A stretch of DNA of 9,522 nt from Nitrospira sp. (GTDB lineage Bacteria; Nitrospirota; Nitrospiria; Nitrospirales; Nitrospiraceae): the NCBI GenBank assembly GCA_015904045.1, contig JABMDG010000011.1, positions 1 to 9,522 on the forward strand, in the 5' to 3' direction. The notes under the pieces were generated by a model. It was not told where the DNA came from and searched no databases. It worked only from the letters and a program-made list of their open reading frames with translations. A program made the translations under genes and the position numbers. This document shows positions 1-9,522 of the stretch, piece by piece. Every line of letters begins with the position of its first letter. Within the stretch, counting starts at the first letter, position 1.

Positions 1-3
1 TCC

Positions 4-1086
4 ATGAACATACCGCTGACGCCTGATATTGTCTCCGCCAGAAGCGCGCCGCTCTTTGGATTCTGGTACCCGGCTGTGCCGAGCCATACCTTGCCATCAG
101 GATCGATGAAAGCCCTGCAGATGCTGGGGCTTCCGATCGTGCTTTGTCGGGACCGGGAGGGGCGGCTGGCGGCGATGCGCGATATTTGCCCGCATCGCGG
201 CATGCCCTTGTCGTTCGGACGATTCGACGGTGAGCGCGTCGAATGTCCTTATCACGGGTGGCAGTTCGATATGAAGGGCCGCTGCCGCCGTATTCCGGCC
301 CTTCCGGATGGCGCGTCCCTTCAGCCAGACAAAGTCGGGATCGTCGCCTATCCGGCTGAAGAGACCGACGGTATGATTTGGCTGTATCTTCCCGATGAGC
401 GTGGAACTACAATCCCCTTGCCGCCGGTCCCGCGCATGCCGCTGCCGTCGGAACCGAAGCAGTCGTTTCACATTTCGCTGTTCTACACCTGTACGGCGGA
501 CGACGGCGTCATCGGCCTCATCGATCCGGTGCACGGCCCCTACGTCCATTCCTGGTGGCGCAGTGATGCGAGCATGCATGAGAAGACGAAGGTTTTTGAG
601 CCGATTCCAAACGGATTCCGGATGACGGCCCATCGACCGGCCAAGAACAGCGGCCCGTTTCATTGGCTGGAGCGAGTCTATGGGGGGCCCTTGAGCACGA
701 CGATCGACTTTCTGCTCCCGAATCAGCGCGTCGAACTCATGGAGTGCGGGAGGGTGTGGATGGCCAACCGGTTGATGGCCACGCCCATGTCCGATATGGA
801 ATGCCGCATTGATTTCTCCGCCTATTGGCGCGGGCTGCATTGGCTTCCGTTCGGGAATCTGGTCTTTCGCACGCTCACCAAGATGTTTCTGGGCCAGGAT
901 GAACGTGCCATGAAGCATCTCGCCGTGGGGCTTCGTCACAAACCGTCGTCGATGTTTCTTGGCGATGCCGACATGCCGGCCAAGTGGTACTACAAACTGA
1001 AAGCCGCCCACCTCGCCTCGGTTCAGACGGGGCAGCCGATGGAACATCCCCTCAAAGAGCGGGTGACGCTGCGGTGGAGAAGCTGA
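4..1086 (+). CDS. Rieske [2Fe-2S] non-haem iron oxygenase, alpha-subunit type
   Basis: A 360-residue protein of the Rieske ring-hydroxylating oxygenase type. These enzymes take electrons from a reductase through a [2Fe-2S] cluster to a mononuclear iron that activates O2 to hydroxylate or demethylate a substrate. Seen: a Rieske cluster site C62-x-H64 ... C81-x2-H84 (CPHRG and CPYHGW), then the catalytic iron site D174-x2-H177-x4-H182. A plausible third iron ligand is D299 in the GQDERAMKH segment. The length fits the single-subunit vanillate O-demethylase or Pao-like group. The substrate cannot be read from the sequence, and no ferredoxin or reductase gene is in view. ATG at 4 is the first start in the window and gives a family-like N-terminus (FWYPAVPSHTL), but the upstream ribosome binding site is outside the window. 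The stop overlaps the likely start of the Lon-like gene, which suggests co-translation. The last 122 codons are duplicated at 3039-3407. Confidence 0.9.
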   Translation: MNIPLTPDIVSARSAPLFGFWYPAVPSHTLPSGSMKALQMLGLPIVLCRDREGRLAAMRDICPHRGMPLSFGRFDGERVECPYHGWQFDMKGRCRRIPALPDGASLQPDKVGIVAYPAEETDGMIWLYLPDERGTTIPLPPVPRMPLPSEPKQSFHISLFYTCTADDGVIGLIDPVHGPYVHSWWRSDASMHEKTKVFEPIPNGFRMTAHRPAKNSGPFHWLERVYGGPLSTTIDFLLPNQRVELMECGRVWMANRLMATPMSDMECRIDFSAYWRGLHWLPFGNLVFRTLTKMFLGQDERAMKHLAVGLRHKPSSMFLGDADMPAKWYYKLKAAHLASVQTGQPMEHPLKERVTLRWRS

Positions 1087-1751
1087 CCGGTCGTCTCAAT
1101 ATCCCCCAGCTCATGTTCATAATCATTGTTGCTGCTCTGTTCGTGTCGCCGGTATGGGCAGGAAGCGACGCGCGGACGGTGCTCGTTCCGGCTCTGGGTG
1201 TGCGGGGAGAAGGGCTTCCCGGAGTCGTCAATTACATTGTCATTCAGTTCGAGCGGACGATGAGGGAGGATGGTCCGACGGTCCAGTTCAGCGAGATCAA
1301 TCTGGGAGGTGGCTCGCTTGTGGGTGAGGAGTGGAAAGAGGGAGTACGCCGGGCCGTGCGGGCCGTCGCCCACGCCGTCGGCGATGACGGCCGTAATTGG
1401 CTGATTACGATCAAAAATCGTTCGCATATGGCCATGACCGACGGGATGAGTGCGGGGGCTGCCGTGGCGGTGGGTATCATGGCGGTCTATAAGGGTGAAG
1501 AGATCAGATCTGACGTAGCCCTGTCCGGCCAGATTACCCCGGATGGCCGACTTGAGGCTGTCGGAGGATTACCTGTAAAAATTGAAGCGGCAGCGGGTGC
1601 TCAGTACCGGGCGATGGTCGTACCTCGTGAGCAGATCTTTACCACCGACTGGGTAATCACGAAAGAAACAGCCGATCGAAAGCGGGTACAGCTTATTCAC
1701 GCCGGCACACTGGAAGAGGCGTATCAGGTTATGACGGGGAGCGTCCGCTAG
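1074..1751 (+). CDS. Exported Lon-type (S16) serine protease domain protein, no ATPase domain
   Basis: A stand-alone Lon proteolytic domain preceded by an export signal. Seen: a basic N-terminus (EKLTGR), a hydrophobic stretch (MFIIIVAALFVSPVWAG) resembling a signal peptide, then the S16 fold. The catalytic Ser is in TDGMSAG (S126 from the GTG start) and the catalytic Lys in GGLPVKIEAAAG (K169). The 43-residue spacing equals that of S679 and K722 in E. coli Lon, and the intervening SGQITPDGRLEAVGG matches the Lon sheet. There is no Walker A or AAA+ module. Start: the open frame runs back to 984, but a GTG at 1074 follows GGGTGA at 1061-1066 and overlaps the Rieske stop by 13 bp. ATG 1113 is an alternative that would leave no basic residues before the hydrophobic stretch. 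Inference: an ATP-independent protease or a processing factor acting outside the cytoplasm. The 3' end overlaps the convergent antiporter gene by 23 bp. The gene is absent from the duplicated unit B. Confidence 0.8.
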   Translation: MEKLTGRLNIPQLMFIIIVAALFVSPVWAGSDARTVLVPALGVRGEGLPGVVNYIVIQFERTMREDGPTVQFSEINLGGGSLVGEEWKEGVRRAVRAVAHAVGDDGRNWLITIKNRSHMAMTDGMSAGAAVAVGIMAVYKGEEIRSDVALSGQITPDGRLEAVGGLPVKIEAAAGAQYRAMVVPREQIFTTDWVITKETADRKRVQLIHAGTLEEAYQVMTGSVR

Positions 1752-3033
1752 GGGGTTCTGTTTCGCGTAAGAGAATGAGACCCATTGCCCGACGGATCTG
1801 ATCGCGCGTTCCCAATAAGACGATGATATCGCCGGGGAGAAGTGTGGTTTTCGCAGAAGGATTGGATTCTGTGATCCCGCTTCTGGTCCACGCAATGATC
1901 GAGGTGCCGGTTCGGGGCCGCAAGGCCAGTTGATCGATGGTCTTCCCAGCTGCCGGTGAATCCTCCTCGATCCGACAAGTCTCCACTTCCACATCACTGA
2001 GTGTGCCGCCACGAAGATGGTGGGCCAACTCGGGCAGCTCGCTCCGGCGCAACAGGGCATAGCCTTCCCGTCGAACCTGTTCGGCCTTCCGCATCACGAA
2101 TTCTTGCGGCATGTTGTAGGTCCGTAGCACCAGCGCAAAAATCTCGATCGACGTTTCAAACTCTTCCGGCACCACATCATCGGCGCCGAGTTGATGGAGC
2201 TCTTCCAACTCGCGCAGGTAGCGCGTCCTGACGACGATATGAATCTTCGGATTCAAACTGCGCGCCACTTGGACGGTTCGGCGGGCCATGAACGGATCGG
2301 AAATCGCGATCACCAGGACTCTGGCATCATCGATTTTCATATGCCGGAGCACGTGCGGGTTCGTGGCATCGCCGTAGTAGAGGGGCAAGCCGTGCTGCGC
2401 TTCCCGGCGCACCGTATCGCCGTCCAGATCTAATGCAATGTAGGGTACTTCCGTTTCACCCAGCACGCGAGCCAGGTTTCTGCCGTTCAATCCGTACCCC
2501 ACGATGATCACATGGTCTTTGATACGGAGGTGCCGCCCTTCCGTCTCCAGCACATGGGCCGTGGTCTGGCCGGGCAGCCAACGGCGGAGCCGCTGGACGG
2601 CTTCTACGTGCCGGGCGAGATGTGGCGACCCCTGCATGAGGAACGGCGTGATGATCATGGAACAGACGGAGACCGCCAGGAATATTTGATAGGGTGTGCC
2701 GGACATCAGGCCGTGCTCTTGGCCGACCTGAGCCAGTACAAAGCTGAATTCGCCTACTTGAGCCAGGGCTACGCCGGTCATGACCGCCGCCCGTGGAGGG
2801 ACCGACGCGGCCAGCACGGCTCCGGCGCCGCTGAGGAATTTTAGAAGCAACACAACGAGTAATAAGCCGGTGACGACTCCGGGATACTGGAGCAGGATTC
2901 GCCAATCCATCAGAATGCCGATGGAGATGAAGAACAGACTGTTAAAACTGTCTCGGAACGGGAGTACCTCCGCGATGGCTTGGTGACTATACTCCGACTC
3001 GGAAATGACGAGCCCGGCAATGAAGGCGCCCAA
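1729..3033 (-). pseudogene. 5'-truncated KefB-like cation/proton antiporter (copy A)
   Basis: The C-terminal 434 residues of a CPA2-family antiporter. It begins at LGAFIAG, which aligns with residue 243 of the complete copy at 3580-5589. Present: the later membrane helices, the RCK_N/TrkA-N nucleotide-binding domain (VIIVGYGLNGRN) and the TrkA-C domain. Missing: the first ~242 residues, including the FQD ion-binding aspartate helix. About 87 percent of aligned residues match copy B by hand count, with a different and slightly longer C-terminal tail (ETEPPSGRSPS). The only start at the 5' end is a TTG at 3033, and an in-frame TGA lies nine codons before it, in DNA that belongs to the Rieske fragment. 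There are no internal stops or frameshifts. It is most likely a non-functional remnant or a gene cut by an assembly join. A regulatory half-protein is possible but unsupported. Confidence 0.8.
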
Positions 3034-3042
3034 TGCGGCCGA
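3033..3042. other. Duplication or chimera junction
   Basis: The sequence left of about 3036 matches antiporter DNA (compare 4851-4866), and the sequence right of about 3039 matches Rieske DNA (compare 718 onward). In the overlap (TGCGGCCGA) both parents match partially, so the breakpoint cannot be fixed to one base. No insertion-sequence end, long repeat or recombination site is visible at the join, so only a few bases of microhomology connect two unrelated coding sequences. Confidence 0.8.
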
Positions 3043-3407
3043 ACCAGCGGGTGGAGCTCATGCAATGCGGCAGGGCCTGGATGGCCAACCGGCTGATGTC
3101 CACGCCCGTTTCTGATATGGAGTGCCGCATCGACTTTTCCGCCTATTGGCGAGGCCTGAATTGGATTCCCTTCGGGAGTTGGATCTTCAGGACGCTGACG
3201 AAAACATTCCTCGGTCAGGATGAACGAGCGATGAAGCATCTCGCGGTGGGGCTTCGCCATAAGCCGTCGTCGATGTTTCTGGGCGATGCCGACATGCCGG
3301 CCAAATGGTATTACAAGCTGAAGGCCGCGCATGTGGCCTCAGTGCAGACCGGACAGCCGATGGATCATCCTCTCAAGGAGCGCGTCACCTTGCGATGGCG
3401 CAGTTAG
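3033..3407 (+). pseudogene. 5'-truncated Rieske oxygenase, C-terminal fragment (copy B)
   Basis: This reads as the last 122 residues (PNQRVELM to RWRS) of a Rieske oxygenase, about 90 percent identical by hand count to residues 239-360 of the gene at 4-1086. The Rieske cluster ligands and the two iron-binding histidines are missing; only the candidate iron ligand in GQDERAMKH remains, so it cannot be an active oxygenase. The frame opens with an ATG at 3033 that is created by the junction with the antiporter sequence, and homology starts two codons later. There are no stops or frameshifts inside. It is followed directly by the palindromic element at 3407-3576. It is a remnant of a duplication, or the start of a second, related genome segment. 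Confidence 0.85.
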
Positions 3408-4867
3408 CAGGATGGTGAAAAAGGCCGCCAGCATCGTTCTCGCATCGCTCAGAGGCTCAACATACGGCCCAGAGTATGCCTCGCCTCTTCGCTCGCTGCG
3501 GCCTTCCTGCGGAGCGGCGCGTCTTGGCGCGCCGGGGTCGGGCGGGTGAGACAAGCGGGCTTTTTGACCATCCTGCGGGTTAGTTCGTGGAGTCGCCGAT
3601 GAGCACTAGGCTCATCGCTCGTTTGATTTGTTCGCGCGTTCCCAGCAAGACAATGATGTCGCCGGCGAGGAGGGTGGTTTTGACCGAGGGGTTGGACTCC
3701 GTGATACCGCCTCTGGTCCACGCGATGATGGACGTGCCGGTCCGTTGCCGCAGCGCCAGTTGGTCAATGGTTTTCCCGACCGCCGGCGAATCGTCTTCGA
3801 GCCGGCACGTCTCCACTTCCACGTCGCTCAGCGTCCCGCCACGCAGGTGGTGGGCCAATTCCGGCAACTCACTCCGGCGCAAGAGGGCGTAGCCTTCCCG
3901 GCGGACCTGCTCGGCCTTGCGCATCACGAACTCCTGGGGCATGTTATAGGTCCGCAGGACCAGCGCGAAGATTTCGATCGACGTTTCAAATTCTTCCGGC
4001 ACGACATCGTCCGCGCCGAGCTGATGGAGTTCCTCCAGCTCGCGCAAATACCGCGTGCGGACGACGATGTGAATTTTCGGATTCAGACCCCGCGCGATCT
4101 GCACGGCGCGGCGCGCCGTGAAAGGGTCGGGAATCGCGACGACCAGCACCCGCGCATCCTCGATTTTCACATGCCGCAGGATCGTGGGATTCGTGCCATC
4201 GCCATAGTAGAGCGGTAAGCCGTGCTGCGATTCGCGGCGTACGATATCGCCGTCCAAATCCAGGACGACATAGGGCACTTCGGTCTCGCCGAGCACACGG
4301 GCGAGATTGCGACCGTTCAACCCGTACCCCACAATAATGACATGATCCTTGATCCGCAGGTGCCGTCCCTCTGTCTTCAGCACATGGGCGGTCGTCTGCC
4401 CGGGTAGCCAGTGATGGAGCCGTTGGAGCGCCTCGACGTGCCTGGCCAGGTGGGGGGCGGCTTGCATGAGGAACGGCGTGATGATCATGGAGCAGACCGA
4501 GACGGCCAGGAAGATCTGATACGGCGCCCCGGACAACAGACCCTGTTCCTCGCCGACTTGGGCCAGGATGAAACTAAATTCCCCGACCTGCGCGAGCGCG
4601 ATGCCGGCCATGATCGCCGATCGCGGGGGAAGAGAGACAAACAGCACGGCGCCGGCCCCCGTGACGAATTTGATGAGCAGCATCAGAAACAATAGACCGG
4701 TTACCACGCCGGGATACTCGAGCAGGATGCGCCAATCCATCAGAATGCCGATGGAGACGAAGAACAGGCTGTTGAAGCTGTCCCGAAACGGGAGCACTTC
4801 CGCAGTGGCCTGATGGCTGTATTCCGATTCGGAGATCACGAGGCCGGCAATGAAGGCCCCCAAGGCA
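3039..4867. repeat. Duplicated unit B (Rieske 3' part, palindromic element, antiporter 3' part)
   Basis: The right copy of the duplication. The Rieske part at 3039-3407 matches 718-1086, and the antiporter part at 3583-4863 matches 1753-3033 with a constant offset of 1830 bp over the stretch checked. The space between them (3408-3579) holds a palindromic element in place of the Lon-like gene. In 3805-4077 there are 43 nucleotide differences from unit A and none changes an amino acid. Confidence 0.8.
3407..3576. repeat. Palindromic intergenic element with terminal inverted repeats (REP/MITE-like)
   Basis: A 170-bp element that fills nearly all of the space between the convergent Rieske fragment and antiporter gene. 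Its ends are inverted repeats: CAGGATGGTGAAAAAG at 3408-3423 and CTTTTTGACCATCCTG at 3560-3575, with one mismatch in 16, extending to GC on the outside and to CCGC inside with one more mismatch. The interior holds further arms, such as CATAC/GTATG around 3458-3476 within GAGGC ... GCCTC, and GGCGCG/CGCGCC near 3515-3535. There is no open reading frame of note. Folded as RNA, each end gives a long stem beside a T-run on either strand, so it could act as a two-way terminator for the converging genes. From memory it resembles dispersed palindromic repeats in Nitrospira genomes; this was not checked. Confidence 0.7.
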
Positions 4868-5589
4868 AGCGAGAGCCCGCCTAGCGAGGTCAGCCACGCG
4901 ATGCCGAGGCACATAACAATGACCGTCAAGAGAAACAATTCTCGGCTGCGACTGCGGACGATGTGTTCCAGTATCTTCGGCACCATGTACCAGGCCCCTA
5001 CGACAATGACGGCCACGGCCACCACGGATTTGGCCAACGTGATGAGAATGGCCGTGAACGCGTCGCCGCTTGGGGTGGCGAGAATCGGTGTCAGCAGGAT
5101 CATGGGCACCACGGCCAGGTCTTGGAACACCAAAATGCCGATCGTGGCGCGGCCGTGGACGGAATCGCTTTCTCCGTTCTCTGCCAGGGCCTTGAGCACG
5201 ATGGCGGTGCTGCTCAAGGAGAGGAGAAAGCCCCAGAATATGGCCTGCGATGTCGTCAACCCCGCGAAGAGGCCGCCGAGACAGGCAATCGCGATGACGC
5301 CGCCCACCTGAATCGGGGCGGCAATCACCAATAGCTTTCGCAGCGAGGCGAGTTGAACCAGCGAAAATTCGATGCCGATCGTGAAGAGCAGGAGGACCAC
5401 CCCGATTTCCGCCAGGATCTTCACGGTCCCGATGTCGGAGATCAGGTTGAGGCCGTGCGGGCCGATCAAGGCGCCGGCGACGAGAAACCCGGCGATGGAG
5501 GGCAGACGAAACTGGTGAAACAAAAACACCACCGCGATGGAGACGGTGTAGATGACCAGCAAATTGCCGAGCACGCCGTATTCAGTCAT
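3580..5589 (-). CDS. KefB/KefC-like monovalent cation/proton antiporter (CPA2) with RCK domains
   Basis: A complete 669-residue inner-membrane antiporter that would exchange K+ or Na+ for protons under nucleotide control. Seen: about a dozen hydrophobic helices over residues 5-375, including AEIGVVLLLFTIGIEFSL (about 60-77) and the FQD motif with D157, the expected ion-binding aspartate of this family. A Rossmann-type RCK_N domain follows from about 416 (GYGLNG at 421-426), and a TrkA-C domain at about 596-660. The acidic HALESDIE loop that mediates glutathione control in E. coli KefC is replaced by HQATAEVL (259-266), so glutathione gating is doubtful and a YbaL-like role is possible. Start: ATG at 5589 opens with MTEYGVLGNLL just before the first helix. 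A GTG at 5655 would add 22 polar residues and is less likely; neither has a clear ribosome binding site. Codons 243 onward are duplicated at 1729-3033. Confidence 0.9.
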   Translation of the reverse strand: MTEYGVLGNLLVIYTVSIAVVFLFHQFRLPSIAGFLVAGALIGPHGLNLISDIGTVKILAEIGVVLLLFTIGIEFSLVQLASLRKLLVIAAPIQVGGVIAIACLGGLFAGLTTSQAIFWGFLLSLSSTAIVLKALAENGESDSVHGRATIGILVFQDLAVVPMILLTPILATPSGDAFTAILITLAKSVVAVAVIVVGAWYMVPKILEHIVRSRSRELFLLTVIVMCLGIAWLTSLGGLSLALGAFIAGLVISESEYSHQATAEVLPFRDSFNSLFFVSIGILMDWRILLEYPGVVTGLLFLMLLIKFVTGAGAVLFVSLPPRSAIMAGIALAQVGEFSFILAQVGEEQGLLSGAPYQIFLAVSVCSMIITPFLMQAAPHLARHVEALQRLHHWLPGQTTAHVLKTEGRHLRIKDHVIIVGYGLNGRNLARVLGETEVPYVVLDLDGDIVRRESQHGLPLYYGDGTNPTILRHVKIEDARVLVVAIPDPFTARRAVQIARGLNPKIHIVVRTRYLRELEELHQLGADDVVPEEFETSIEIFALVLRTYNMPQEFVMRKAEQVRREGYALLRRSELPELAHHLRGGTLSDVEVETCRLEDDSPAVGKTIDQLALRQRTGTSIIAWTRGGITESNPSVKTTLLAGDIIVLLGTREQIKRAMSLVLIGDSTN

Positions 5590-5905
5590 GGATATCGCGG
5601 GGAGACGTTGCGTATGGTTCGCCGCCGAATCTCGTAAACTCGCGTCACACCGCACGCTTCTCGGATCGGGTTAAGGCCGGAGGATACCTCACTGCCCGCC
5701 ATCGGACAAGGTAAAGCTTTGAACGCCGCTCGGCGGATGGAGTGCGTCCCGCCCTCTGAGAGGAGATGTTCCCCGATCCCTGCGCGGCTGCGATCGCGTG
5801 GAGTGGGATGGTCGATTGGCGCAGACCGGCCACAGATCTTGGTTTCCCCCTCCAAAGAGGCATAGATTCTGGCCGCCTCCATTACGTAAGTTGTGTTTGC
5901 GCGGT

Positions 5906-5931
5906 GACGGTGAGCCGTCGGCCGAAGGGCC
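5906..5931 (+). promoter_or_regulatory. Two adjacent small hairpins in the leader of the exported protein gene
   Basis: GACGG-TGAG-CCGTC (5906-5919) is followed at once by GGCC-GAAG-GGCC (5920-5931), both perfect stems with four-base loops. They lie about 30 bases before the ribosome binding site at 5961. They could shape the 5' leader of the mRNA. In GC-rich DNA such short stems also occur by chance, so this is weak. Confidence 0.25.
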
Positions 5932-5960
5932 TGGATGGTTCTGATTGCGGCCTTGTTGAT

Positions 5961-5967
5961 GGAGGTG
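5961..5967 (+). promoter_or_regulatory. Ribosome binding site GGAGGTG
   Basis: A near-perfect Shine-Dalgarno sequence, GGAGGT, five bases before the ATG at 5972. It decides the start over the second ATG at 5981, which would sit 14 bases away. Confidence 0.8.
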
Positions 5968-5971
5968 CCTT

Positions 5972-6541
5972 ATGGGGCTCATGCGAACGGTGTCTTTCGC
6001 ATCCACAGTCGTGGTGCTGCTCGCGGCATCGGCGTCAGCCGATACTCCACCGCCGGCGCCGGAGCCTGCCGATACATGGGAATGCCAGCTGGCGGATGGG
6101 AACACGATCTATACCAACAAGGAACGGGCCGGATGCCGGGCCGTGCTGCTCAGGCCGCTCTCGGTGGTGCCGTCGTTGGAGAACATGCCGATCACTCCTC
6201 GAGCGTCAACTCTCGCCGCGCCGCACCATGACATGCCGGCTTACCAAGATCGCGGTGCGAGTGTGGGAGGCCGGAATGTTCCGGATTGGGCCAAGGATTG
6301 GTATGCGAGTGTGGCGCCGAGCGGTTCCGTCCACGAGGAAGTCTGTTCCCTCTATTCGGAATGGCTCCACTTGGTCCAAAAAACCCGCGGCGGGATGTTC
6401 TACGGATCCGATCCCTCGTACGGTGGCGATATCACAGGGCGCAATCAACGCGGCGCCAGCTATTCCTTCAACGACAATACGCGCTATGTCACCTTGTCGA
6501 GAGTCTTTGGGGCGGGATTCGTGCCGATCGGCTGCCCATAA
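5972..6541 (+). CDS. Small exported hypothetical protein with DUF4124-like N-terminal segment
   Basis: A 189-residue protein whose function I do not recognise. Seen: a signal peptide (MGLMRTVSFASTVVVLLAAS, with probable cleavage after ASA at residue 23), a Pro-rich linker, then WECQLADGNTIYTNKE..GC. The last recalls the DUF4124 pattern of a short strand pair ending in YTN, found in many exported proteobacterial-type proteins. Four cysteines (38, 55, 125, 188) would allow two disulfides in an oxidising compartment. The C-terminal half (GMFYGSDPSYGGDITG, ending FVPIGCP) is rich in Gly, Tyr and Ser. It has a strong ribosome binding site, is transcribed away from the antiporter gene, and converges on the epimerase gene 34 bp further on. 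It is probably a single-gene unit. Confidence 0.75.
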   Translation: MGLMRTVSFASTVVVLLAASASADTPPPAPEPADTWECQLADGNTIYTNKERAGCRAVLLRPLSVVPSLENMPITPRASTLAAPHHDMPAYQDRGASVGGRNVPDWAKDWYASVAPSGSVHEEVCSLYSEWLHLVQKTRGGMFYGSDPSYGGDITGRNQRGASYSFNDNTRYVTLSRVFGAGFVPIGCP

Positions 6542-6580
6542 GCCGGGAGATTCATGAAAGAGATGTGACCCGGCGTCACA
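6542..6580. terminator. Possible shared terminator hairpin between convergent genes
   Basis: Inverted repeats between and across the two converging stops: TGTGAC-CCGGC-GTCACA (6564-6580), a perfect six-base stem, and an alternative GCCGGG ... CCCGGC pairing (6542-6547 with 6569-6574). No T-run follows on either strand, so an intrinsic terminator is not proven. The epimerase stop codon (6576-6578) lies inside the stem. Confidence 0.35.
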
Positions 6581-7598
6581 CTCTGTAGAAGTCTCGATAC
6601 CATTTCACGAAACGGGGAATGCCTTCTTCGATCGGTGTTGCCGGTGCGAAACCGACGTCGCGTGACAAGTCGTCGATGTCGGCGTAGGTCGCGGGCACAT
6701 CGCCGGGCTGCAACGGCATCAGCTTCTTCTCCGCTTTTTTACCGAGCGCCTGCTCCAGCACTTCAATAAAACGCATGAGTTCAGCCGGCTGGTGGTTGCC
6801 GATATTATAAATCCGGGCCGGTGCCGAGCTGGTGCCGGGATCAGGCCGTTCACCGGACCATGAGTGATCGGGTACGGCCGGATGATCGAGCGTGCGCACG
6901 ACGCCTTCCACGATGTCGTCGATATAGGTGAAATCGCGTTGCATCTTGCCGTGATTGAAGACCTCGATCGGCGTGCCCTCCAGGATCGCCTTGGTAAAAA
7001 TGAACAGCGCCATATCGGGCCGCCCCCAGGGGCCATAGACGGTGAAAAACCGGAGCCCGGTGCAGGGGATCCGGTAGAGATGGGCATAGCAGTGAGCCAT
7101 GAGCTCATTGGCCTTTTTCGTTGCGGCGTAGAGCGAAACGGGATGATCCACATTGTCATGGATGGAAAACGGCATCTTCGTGTTGCCGCCGTAGACGGAA
7201 CTGGACGAGGCGTAGACGAGATGCTCGATGCCGGCATAACGGCAGCCTTCCAGAATGTTCAGAAACCCCTCGATGTTGCTCTCGGTGTACGCGTAGGGAT
7301 TGACCAGTGAATAGCGCACACCGGCTTGGGCGGCAAGATGGACGACCCGGCGGATCGGCGTGTCGGTAAAGAGGTCGCGCATGCCCTGCCGATTGGCAAG
7401 ATCGAGTTTCACGAAACTGAACCGCTCATGCGGTTTCAGTTGAGCCAGGCGCGCGTCTTTGAGCCGGACGTCGTAGTACGTGTTCAGGTTGTCAAGGCCG
7501 ATGACGGATTCGCCGCGATCCAATAGCCGCTTCGCGACGTGGAATCCGATAAAGCCTGCCGTTCCCGTGACCAAGATGGGGGACGATGATCCGCTCAT
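6576..7598 (-). CDS. NAD-dependent sugar-nucleotide epimerase, UDP-glucuronate 4-epimerase type
   Basis: A 340-residue extended short-chain dehydrogenase/epimerase of the cytoplasm. The closest family by motif is UDP-glucuronate 4-epimerase, which makes UDP-galacturonate for capsule, lipopolysaccharide or exopolysaccharide. Seen: the NAD-binding TGTAGFIG (11-18), the acidic residue after the second strand in [18 protein letters not shown] (88-99), the SSSSVYG active-site serine segment (131-137), catalytic Y157-x3-K161 in YAATKKANE, and [14 protein letters not shown]. The length is normal. Start: ATG at 7598 has AAGGAG eight bases upstream; the longer frame to 7679 overlaps the previous gene and adds an unrelated N-terminus. 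It lies 29 bp after the metallo-hydrolase gene on the same strand, so it is probably co-transcribed. A UDP-glucose 4-epimerase or a related specificity cannot be excluded. Confidence 0.88.
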
Positions 7599-7606
7599 AT
7601 CATCTG

Positions 7607-7612
7607 CTCCTT
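7607..7612 (-). promoter_or_regulatory. Ribosome binding site AAGGAG of the epimerase gene
   Basis: AAGGAG on the minus strand, eight bases before the ATG at 7598. It supports that start over the longer open frame reaching 7679. Confidence 0.8.
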
Positions 7613-7627
7613 GAGATAAAAGATATG

Positions 7628-9259
7628 TTACGTCCGGCCATCGGCCTTGAGAAACGGCGGCTCTCCGTGATCCAGGCAATAAAGATGGATGGGACTCAAC
7701 GTGTCACCCGTCGAGACGATGTCGATGCGGTTCCCTTCCCCGGCTCGATAGAGATCCAGTGCACGGGAGCTATGATAGTGGCAATCGTGGGCGGAGAGAA
7801 GATCTTTGAGTGTTTCCGCCGGTTCCCAATGGGCCGTGAGCAGCGCGGTCCGCGCCGGGTTTCTCCGGCTGAACATGAACGATAAATGATCCGGATACCA
7901 GTCGGCGCCGCCGGTGGCGTAGGAGATGAACTGCTTCGCCCGGGCCGTCTTGCAGAGCTCACTGAGGTAGGTGTTGGTGAGGTAGCCGTTCTCGCCCACG
8001 TCTAGCCATGTTCCCGGATGAGACAGCGGCGCGTGTGCGGCGTGGCTGCGCAGTTCGAGCAGCTGCTGTTGTGAGGCAAAGACGAGCGGGATCGGGCCGT
8101 ATGTATCGGCCAGCCTGGCGATGATGCCGTCTTTCAGGGGTGAAAGGCCGTCATTGGTCGGCCCACTATCCGCATGGATGAGCACGTTGTAGCCCCGGTC
8201 GCTGATCAAGTAGCAATTTCTCGGCATCGCCAAATCGCAGGGGTCTTCGCCATAGAACGGCACAGAGACGACCGTACCGCCTTCGAACGGCCAGGTCTCG
8301 CCGTGCGCCAATTCGACGATGCGGCTGAACCCCAATTCCCGCAAGAGCGGCAGGTAATCATAAAACAACTGTTTCCGATTCCGCCGGGAGGGCACGATGA
8401 TCGGCGTGTCTTTCGGCAGATGGAGCAGTGTGCGGGGATCCACATGATCGTCGTGATCGTGCGTCAGGAACACGGCGGCCGGTTTCGGCAGCAACAAACC
8501 CCAGAGGGAGGGGAGGGACGATTCGGCGAACCAGGGTAGGAGCCAGGGATCGAACAGGAAGAAACTGTCCCGTTGTCGATAGAGGAGCGCTGCGTGGCCC
8601 AGATGAACCGTGTCCCGGTCCTGGACGATCTCACCCCACCGTTGGCGAACCGAAGTCCGCGGGGAGACGGCCAGGCACTCGTATTGATCGAGTAATTCCA
8701 GCAAGCGGGTGAGCACCGTCATGGCTTCGCGGCGCGTGGTGGCCACCACCGTTTTGATTTCTTCGACTCGGTGTGTGCCGTCCAGCAGGCCGAGGAGATG
8801 GCCCACCGCCGGTCCCAGCGGGCGCTGATCGAAGCCAAGCGGGATCGCTTGGCGCTTGACGGAATGAAAAATCCGCAGGCCGCCGTTGCTCACCGTCGAT
8901 GATTGAGTGGGATCGGTGGGGAAGTCCCAGTGGAAGGTCCCGTCTGGTTTCCGACCACATGTAATGTGCCGGCGCAAATAGGGGCGGGCGTTCACCAGTT
9001 CCGCATAGGCGTCCTCCAGCCTGCGCCGTCGATTCGGGTCGTCGATCGGGGCGCGTTTGGAAAACACGTCGCTGATGGCCGTGTCGATAGAACTGGCCAG
9101 CAGGCGGTGGGCTTCCTGCAGGCTGGCCGAGACTTCCGGCGCGATGCCGCCGAGAAACGGGAAGGGACCGGGCGGCTCCGCGCTTTCCAGCTGCACCCAA
9201 CACCAGGGGGCCAAACCCACATACTGGCTGTGCGGTAAGTTACTCCAGATGCGGCTCAT
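7628..9259 (-). CDS. MBL-fold metallo-hydrolase (UlaG-like) with N-terminal extension and possible PqqD-like segment
   Basis: A 543-residue protein with a metallo-beta-lactamase domain in its C-terminal part. Seen: the domain opens with [10 protein letters not shown] ... LFDPW (219-239), the pattern of UlaG and NAPE-PLD-type hydrolases (GHATVLI ... DP). The metal motif HDHDDH follows, giving H267, H269, D271 and H272, then the bridging aspartate D364 in IHADSG. HWEP (477-480) is a candidate for the last histidine. The first ~215 residues are not standard for the fold. In them, residues about 140-198 ([21 protein letters not shown] and the two helices after it) look like a PqqD or winged-helix segment as found with peptide-modifying enzymes; this part is inference. 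There is no signal peptide, so it is probably cytoplasmic. The substrate is unknown. The start at 9259 has no clear ribosome binding site and overlaps the upstream gene by 20 bp, which suggests translational coupling. Confidence 0.8.
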
Positions 9260-9522
9260 GGTCGTCAGGACTGATGACTGAGGACTGAGTTTTAGCGGAT
9301 TTTCCCCTGGTCGTAGAGGCGCGAGCCAGTAGTCGTTGTGTATGCACTGCCTTTCGCAGACCGCCTATGATTCGTGCGACTTCTTCTGCTTGAAGGATCA
9401 ATTGACGAAAAATTGATGGATTCAGGTGGGTCGCGTCCAAAGCGACATAAAGTTGTGATCTGAGTTCTGCGCAAGATGACTTAGCCACACTCAGAAATTG
9501 GTGAAACTCAGCCCGACCGCCT
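9240..9522 (-). CDS. Four-helix-bundle protein, 23S rRNA intervening-sequence family (5' end outside window)
   Basis: The C-terminal part of a four-helix-bundle protein. The frame is open to the window edge and reads GRAEFHQFLSVAKSSCAE, LRSQLYVALD, then AEEVARIIGGLRKAV. These are the third and fourth helices of this small family, usually about 120 residues and first noted in intervening sequences of 23S rRNA genes. Its role is unknown. The GTG at 9488 is inside the conserved core, so the true start lies beyond 9522. The tail after about 9375 (LLARASTTRGKSAKTQSS ... HEPHLE) is polar and variable, as is common here. It overlaps the start of the metallo-hydrolase gene by 20 bp. Confidence 0.8.
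   Translation of the reverse strand, partial: GGRAEFHQFLSVAKSSCAELRSQLYVALDATHLNPSIFRQLILQAEEVARIIGGLRKAVHTQRLLARASTTRGKSAKTQSSVISPDDHEPHLE
9268..9288. repeat. Three 7-bp tandem repeats GGACTGA/TGACTGA/GGACTGA
   Basis: Three consecutive heptamers with one variable base, lying just upstream of the metallo-hydrolase start and inside the low-complexity 3' tail of the four-helix-bundle gene. The period of seven shifts the frame at each unit, so repeat number changes would alter the tail of that protein and the spacing to the next start. Confidence 0.6.

Follow-up and report, generated by a model that had tools for sequence, protein, structure and literature searches.

The window, by which we mean the whole 9,522-nt stretch of Nitrospira DNA analysed here, has a full Rieske gene at its left (4-1086, + strand) and a full antiporter gene further right (- strand, with its ATG at 5589 and its stop at 3580). 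Between them two 5′-truncated genes stand head to head at 3033 (ORFs 1729-3033, -, and 3033-3407, +). The preliminary description gave the order of parts as unique Rieske 5′ part, unit A, unit B and unique antiporter 5′ part, and on all these points the direct repeats and ORF layout bear it out. Self-comparison of the window yields two pairs of direct repeats, 713-1012/3034-3333 (82% identity, spacing 2321) and 1763-2062/3593-3892 (79%, spacing 1830). The units had been drawn as 718-3037 (A) and 3039-4867 (B); their homology is real, but it does not span the full units, the two repeat spacings confining it to ~717-1086/3038-3407 and 1763-3036/3593-4866. Between the homologous parts lies a Lon-like ORF in unit A (~1074-1751) and a 175-nt palindromic dispersed repeat in unit B (3405-3579).

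Relatives' loci were collected by antiporter protein search. The six nearest relatives, all of them metagenome-assembled genomes (MAGs) by title, are L055 (bin.260), L051 and L091 for a lineage that we call X, and L039 (YR-XLJ-2), L095 (UBA2082) and L040 for a lineage Y. The features, with the lineage of each, are as follows.

1-3037, no strand: lineage X segment, with the full Rieske gene, the Lon-like gene and the 3′ two thirds of an antiporter gene; a single alignment to L055 at 94.6%, of the same length on both sides.
4-1086, + strand: full-length Rieske [2Fe-2S] protein, lineage X (PF00355, E 1.5e-25; codon identity to L055 93.6-94.4%).
1074-1751, + strand: Lon-like ORF with S16 C-terminal domain, lineage X (PF05362, E 3.3e-10 for ORF 984-1751; 97.8% to L055).
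1729-3036, - strand: 5′-truncated cation/proton antiporter, lineage X (ORF 1729-3033, with homology reaching 3036; PF00999 in part, PF02254, PF02080).
3037-3038, no strand: blunt X/Y junction (base conservation in relatives; no spanning alignment in 79 genomes).
3038-3407, + strand: 5′-truncated Rieske gene, lineage Y (ORF 3033-3407; 90-91% to L039/L095; divergent patch at ~3155-3263).
3405-3579, no strand: palindromic dispersed repeat, MITE/REP-like, between the Rieske and antiporter genes (copies in five relatives' genomes; predicted fold).
3580-5589, - strand: full-length cation/proton antiporter, lineage Y (PF00999, PF02254, PF02080; 97.4-98.0% to L039).
3038-9522, no strand: lineage Y segment (3574-9522 to L039, 96.0%; 3578-9260 to L095, 96.3%; 3034-9230 to L040, 86.5%).

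The start of the Lon-like ORF at 1074 is our choice, the ORF itself spanning 984-1751; from 1074 it overlaps the Rieske stop. Scanning the window for Rfam families (gathering threshold) and for tRNAs found nothing. Toward the right end, 7628-9259 encodes a 543-aa protein whose residues 235-341 weakly match the β-lactamase superfamily (PF12706; 24 bits, where the curated cut-off is 27), and a short ORF at 9240-9488 has a weak sub-cut-off match to the 23S rRNA-intervening sequence protein (PF05635). The latter stretch may differ among relatives, since the L095 alignment stops at 9260 and that of L039 reaches 9522.

The two sides of position 3037 align to two different genomes. By blastn score, L055 is the best match to each of the four pieces of 1-3037, followed by L051 and L091 where the piece is present. 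For the pieces of 3038-9522 the best matches are L039, L095 and L040, with one exception: the dispersed repeat matches best to other copies of itself in G001. G001 is also the nearest genome to the window among those compared (31% of the window's sampled words in common), and its locus and the UBA2082 locus have identical coordinates. The L055 alignment covers 1-3037 and ends at 3037, while those of L039 and L095 begin at 3034-3040 and reach 9522 and 9260, respectively. Identity to the Y relatives is ~96% from 3574 on and 90-91% over the truncated Rieske fragment; over 1-3000, L039 and L095 reach 68-85% in the bins that align. L055 is also collinear with the right part, but at 76-80% only, which means that the neighbourhood is common to both lineages. 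The collinearity of each side is broken only by the repeat insertion at 3405-3579, which L039 and L095 lack at this locus. L055 and L039, as relatives of the two sides, are 76-82% identical in shared genes. Within the Y segment L039 is nearer in the antiporter (98.0 versus 95.7%) and L095 in the epimerase (97.9 versus 95.2%). Among the 120 of 7896 protein matches listed is a full-length antiporter (P0032, 676 aa) that is 99% identical to the truncated X copy over the whole fragment, and hence an intact gene in a very close relative of X.

Units A and B show the divergence of functional genes. The two antiporter copies share 428 codons at 78.2% identity, with dS 1.42 and dN/dS 0.055; the two Rieske copies share 121 codons at 81.3%, with dS 1.53 and dN/dS 0.037. 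In an antiporter tree of 59 relatives plus A and B, A groups with L051, L055 and L091 (support 100/91, 100/100, 100/98) and B with L039, L095 and L040 (100/98, 100/100, 100/100). The Rieske part of unit B belongs to a supported set of four rows, its nearest rows being L095, L039 and L040. The copies are thus not each other's nearest relatives. Constraining A and B as one clade, a pair fixed by the original finding prior to any tree, was rejected for the antiporter (p-AU 5.7e-46) and for the Rieske part with 46 relatives (p-AU 3.5e-4). Since dS is 1.4-1.5 at dN/dS 0.04-0.06, the clades are separate and supported, and a single clade is rejected, these comparisons indicate that units A and B are not duplicates but orthologues from two species, diverged as working genes.

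Both genes are present in 51 of the 60 relatives' loci, and a second copy of either was found in none of the 60 within the stretch examined; four apparent doubles (L089, L093, L096, L097) are single genes split in pieces. In the look at related genomes that had been suggested as a check, L055, L039 and L095 each have one intact Rieske-antiporter locus. A Lon-like gene lies between the two genes in 15 of the 51 loci that hold both, with a patchy distribution; in the Y relatives L039, L095 and L040 none was found there.

We looked for decay in the truncated copies and found none: neither has an internal stop, and constraint is as in full genes, with dN/dS 0.056 for the X antiporter against L055 and 0.064 for the Y Rieske gene against L039 (0.03-0.29 for other genes in the L055/L039 comparisons). 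Truncated copies that are open and as constrained as full genes have had no time for decay, which indicates that the join is either recent or artificial.

The truncated Y Rieske gene has a dS of 0.43 to L039, versus 0.05 for the antiporter, a value that raised the prospect of a third lineage for the whole unit B Rieske fragment. This was rejected, since 25 of the fragment's 35 mismatches to L039 are confined to a patch of ~110 nt (~3155-3263), outside which the fragment is ~96% identical to L039. The best match to the patch among 103 loci is 82%. By alignment, the window looks like two lineages plus a patch at 3155-3263 from an unsampled source, the patch resembling a short import.

The palindromic repeat has a predicted fold of -91.1 kcal/mol (z -4.1), in which a long outer stem pairs the two ends and closes a branched structure. 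Whole or partial matches in the five relatives' genomes number 32, 31, 26, 26 and 5, where the counts in two of the five are to be read as at least, candidates there having been scored in part, and where some matches are two pieces of one copy. Full copies are ~175 nt long; a 105-nt part is commoner. The repeat occupies the Rieske-antiporter gap in 6 of the 51 relatives' loci, among them L040 with a shorter copy. A Y1 transposase (PF01797) was found once in G001 and in neither G024 nor G041, so no link of the repeat to such an enzyme is shown.

The junction can be placed to the base. At 3037 the window has a G, as do the antiporter genes of L055 and L051 and 15 of 28 relatives' antiporter sites, so that the X antiporter can supply this base; all 47 relatives' Rieske sites have T, and the Y Rieske gene cannot. 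At 3038 the Rieske genes of L039, L095 and L040 have G, which the Y Rieske gene can thus supply and the X antiporter cannot, since all 28 antiporter sites have A (60 loci were tried, of which 28 antiporter and 47 Rieske sites were usable). X supplies 3037 and not 3038, Y supplies 3038 and not 3037, and the join 3037|3038 is therefore blunt, with 0 shared bases.

The longest word common to the L055 antiporter and the L039 Rieske gene on the window strand is 10 nt, for this one pair of relatives, which are not the true parents. Assemblers usually work with k of 21 or more. In this pair no shared k-mer lies at the breakpoint by which a de Bruijn graph could misjoin, and an assembler would have no shared word to lead it from X to Y, short of a difference at that place between the true parents and these relatives; such a difference is unlikely because the bases quoted sit in conserved leucine codons on both sides. 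A simple shared-k-mer misjoin thus appears unlikely as the cause of the join. The dispersed repeat was considered as a cause and rejected, since it begins 367 nt to the right of the junction.

Across 79 genomes of the genus, scored at up to 10 candidate places each, no alignment spans the junction; 70 of these genomes match at least one of its sides. Among short Rieske proteins the junction is absent from the six inspected of 31 listed, the best of the 31 being 89% identical to the fragment. No protein with the junction appears among the antiporter matches listed (120 of 7896, sequences not inspected), where clustering at 90% may hide a truncated member. As negatives, both protein searches are weak.

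The window therefore contains two lineages and a single join, at an exact place, without microhomology and without a counterpart in the relatives searched. We consider it probable that it is a chimeric metagenome contig, an artefact of assembly or library. Two Nitrospira species would have contributed, one the left 3037 bases and the other the right 6485, and in the processing of a mixed sample (library construction, assembly or scaffolding) their orthologous Rieske-antiporter loci would have been abutted with an offset of ~2 kb. We infer that the data, rather than a cell, gave rise to the join. Chimeras are no rarity: per genome, one benchmark gives, among its results, 2.63 chimeric contigs for SPAdes and 22.15 for megahit (PMC11261854). 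The six nearest relatives are themselves all MAGs. The odd length of the window may perhaps mean that it is a whole contig. Against a chimera, the L055/L039 pair has no word longer than 10 nt in common, so that an ordinary shared-k-mer misjoin does not account for the join and a chimeric read, library molecule or scaffolding step would be needed. Also against it stands the coincidence that a chance join would fall at the same locus, in the same orientation and within ~2.3 kb, about 1 in 1500 by arithmetic for a 3.6-Mb genome; this is weakened by selection of the case, since a chance join elsewhere would not resemble a duplication. The preliminary description had offered both an assembly join of two co-occurring strains and the import of a related allele. 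The join and the import keep their place among the explanations, but both would be between species, given the identities of L055 and L039, and not between strains.

Import corresponds to real recombination in a cell, which we hold to be a rather unlikely alternative. DNA of one Nitrospira species would have entered the other and, after pairing by homology at one end or beyond it, been joined illegitimately at 3037|3038. Such a join, by homology-facilitated illegitimate recombination or Ku-type end joining, would leave the two truncated genes in their head-to-head position. Homologous pairing, unlike random ligation, would explain why the loci are orthologous and in the same orientation, and mosaicism elsewhere (the nearest relative changing between L039 and L095 from antiporter to epimerase, and the patch at ~3155-3263) is consistent with it. 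A Ku gene occurs in the X relative G041, but in only this one of five draft genomes, none being found in the Y relatives G001, G024 and G029 or in the X-like G020 (54% complete). Homology-facilitated illegitimate recombination, in the cases described in PMC3240628, mostly leaves 3-10 bp of microhomology, against 0 bp here; the junction is in no relative searched, and the truncated copies are without decay. A living Nitrospira cell with a blunt, microhomology-free join of its own locus to the orthologous locus of a species ~20% diverged in these genes is doubtful. If real, it would be interspecies gene import among uncultured nitrifiers caught midway, with two genes broken and one intact copy of each kept, from different species; confirmation of the join would let illegitimate import between nitrifier species be seen directly.

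In a further alternative, a complete second locus would have been imported next to the resident one, and a deletion would then have removed the 5′ parts of the X antiporter and the Y Rieske gene from the resulting full tandem pair. This would produce the same order and a blunt deletion junction, but it requires two events, its two-copy intermediate occurs in none of the 60 relatives' loci, and we rate it very improbable. Duplication in tandem within a single lineage, as first proposed, with its breakpoints inside two convergent genes and the copies diverging later, fits the order of parts but retains next to no probability, since the copies fall in different clades, each together with its own flank and these flanks collinear with two lineages, a single A+B clade is rejected by the AU test for both genes, dN/dS of ~0.05 at dS ~1.4 is unexpected for a full versus a truncated, presumably dead copy, and the Lon-like gene of unit A is missing from unit B.

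Taken at face value, the contig adds a gene duplication, two pseudogenes and the gain of a Lon-like gene to one Nitrospira genome, all three of which are false if it is chimeric. A cheap test for such cases is that low dN/dS at high dS, with each 'duplicate' grouping with a different species and with its own flank, marks joined orthologues and not paralogues.

Compared with known systems, the window shares with homology-facilitated illegitimate recombination, as far as PMC3240628 describes it, foreign homologous DNA and one illegitimate junction, but lacks the 3-10 bp of microhomology, and any homologous end would lie outside the window. On either side of the junction it has the gene content and convergent order of the ordinary Nitrospira Rieske/(Lon-like)/antiporter locus, except that two copies are present here, versus a second copy in 0 of 60 relatives' loci and both genes in 51 of 60. 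It differs from the inter-reference (chimeric) contigs of metagenome assemblies, as these are characterized in PMC11261854, in that both sides are an orthologous locus out of register, without an explanatory shared word, and resembles them in that the flanks of the breakpoint align to two genomes.
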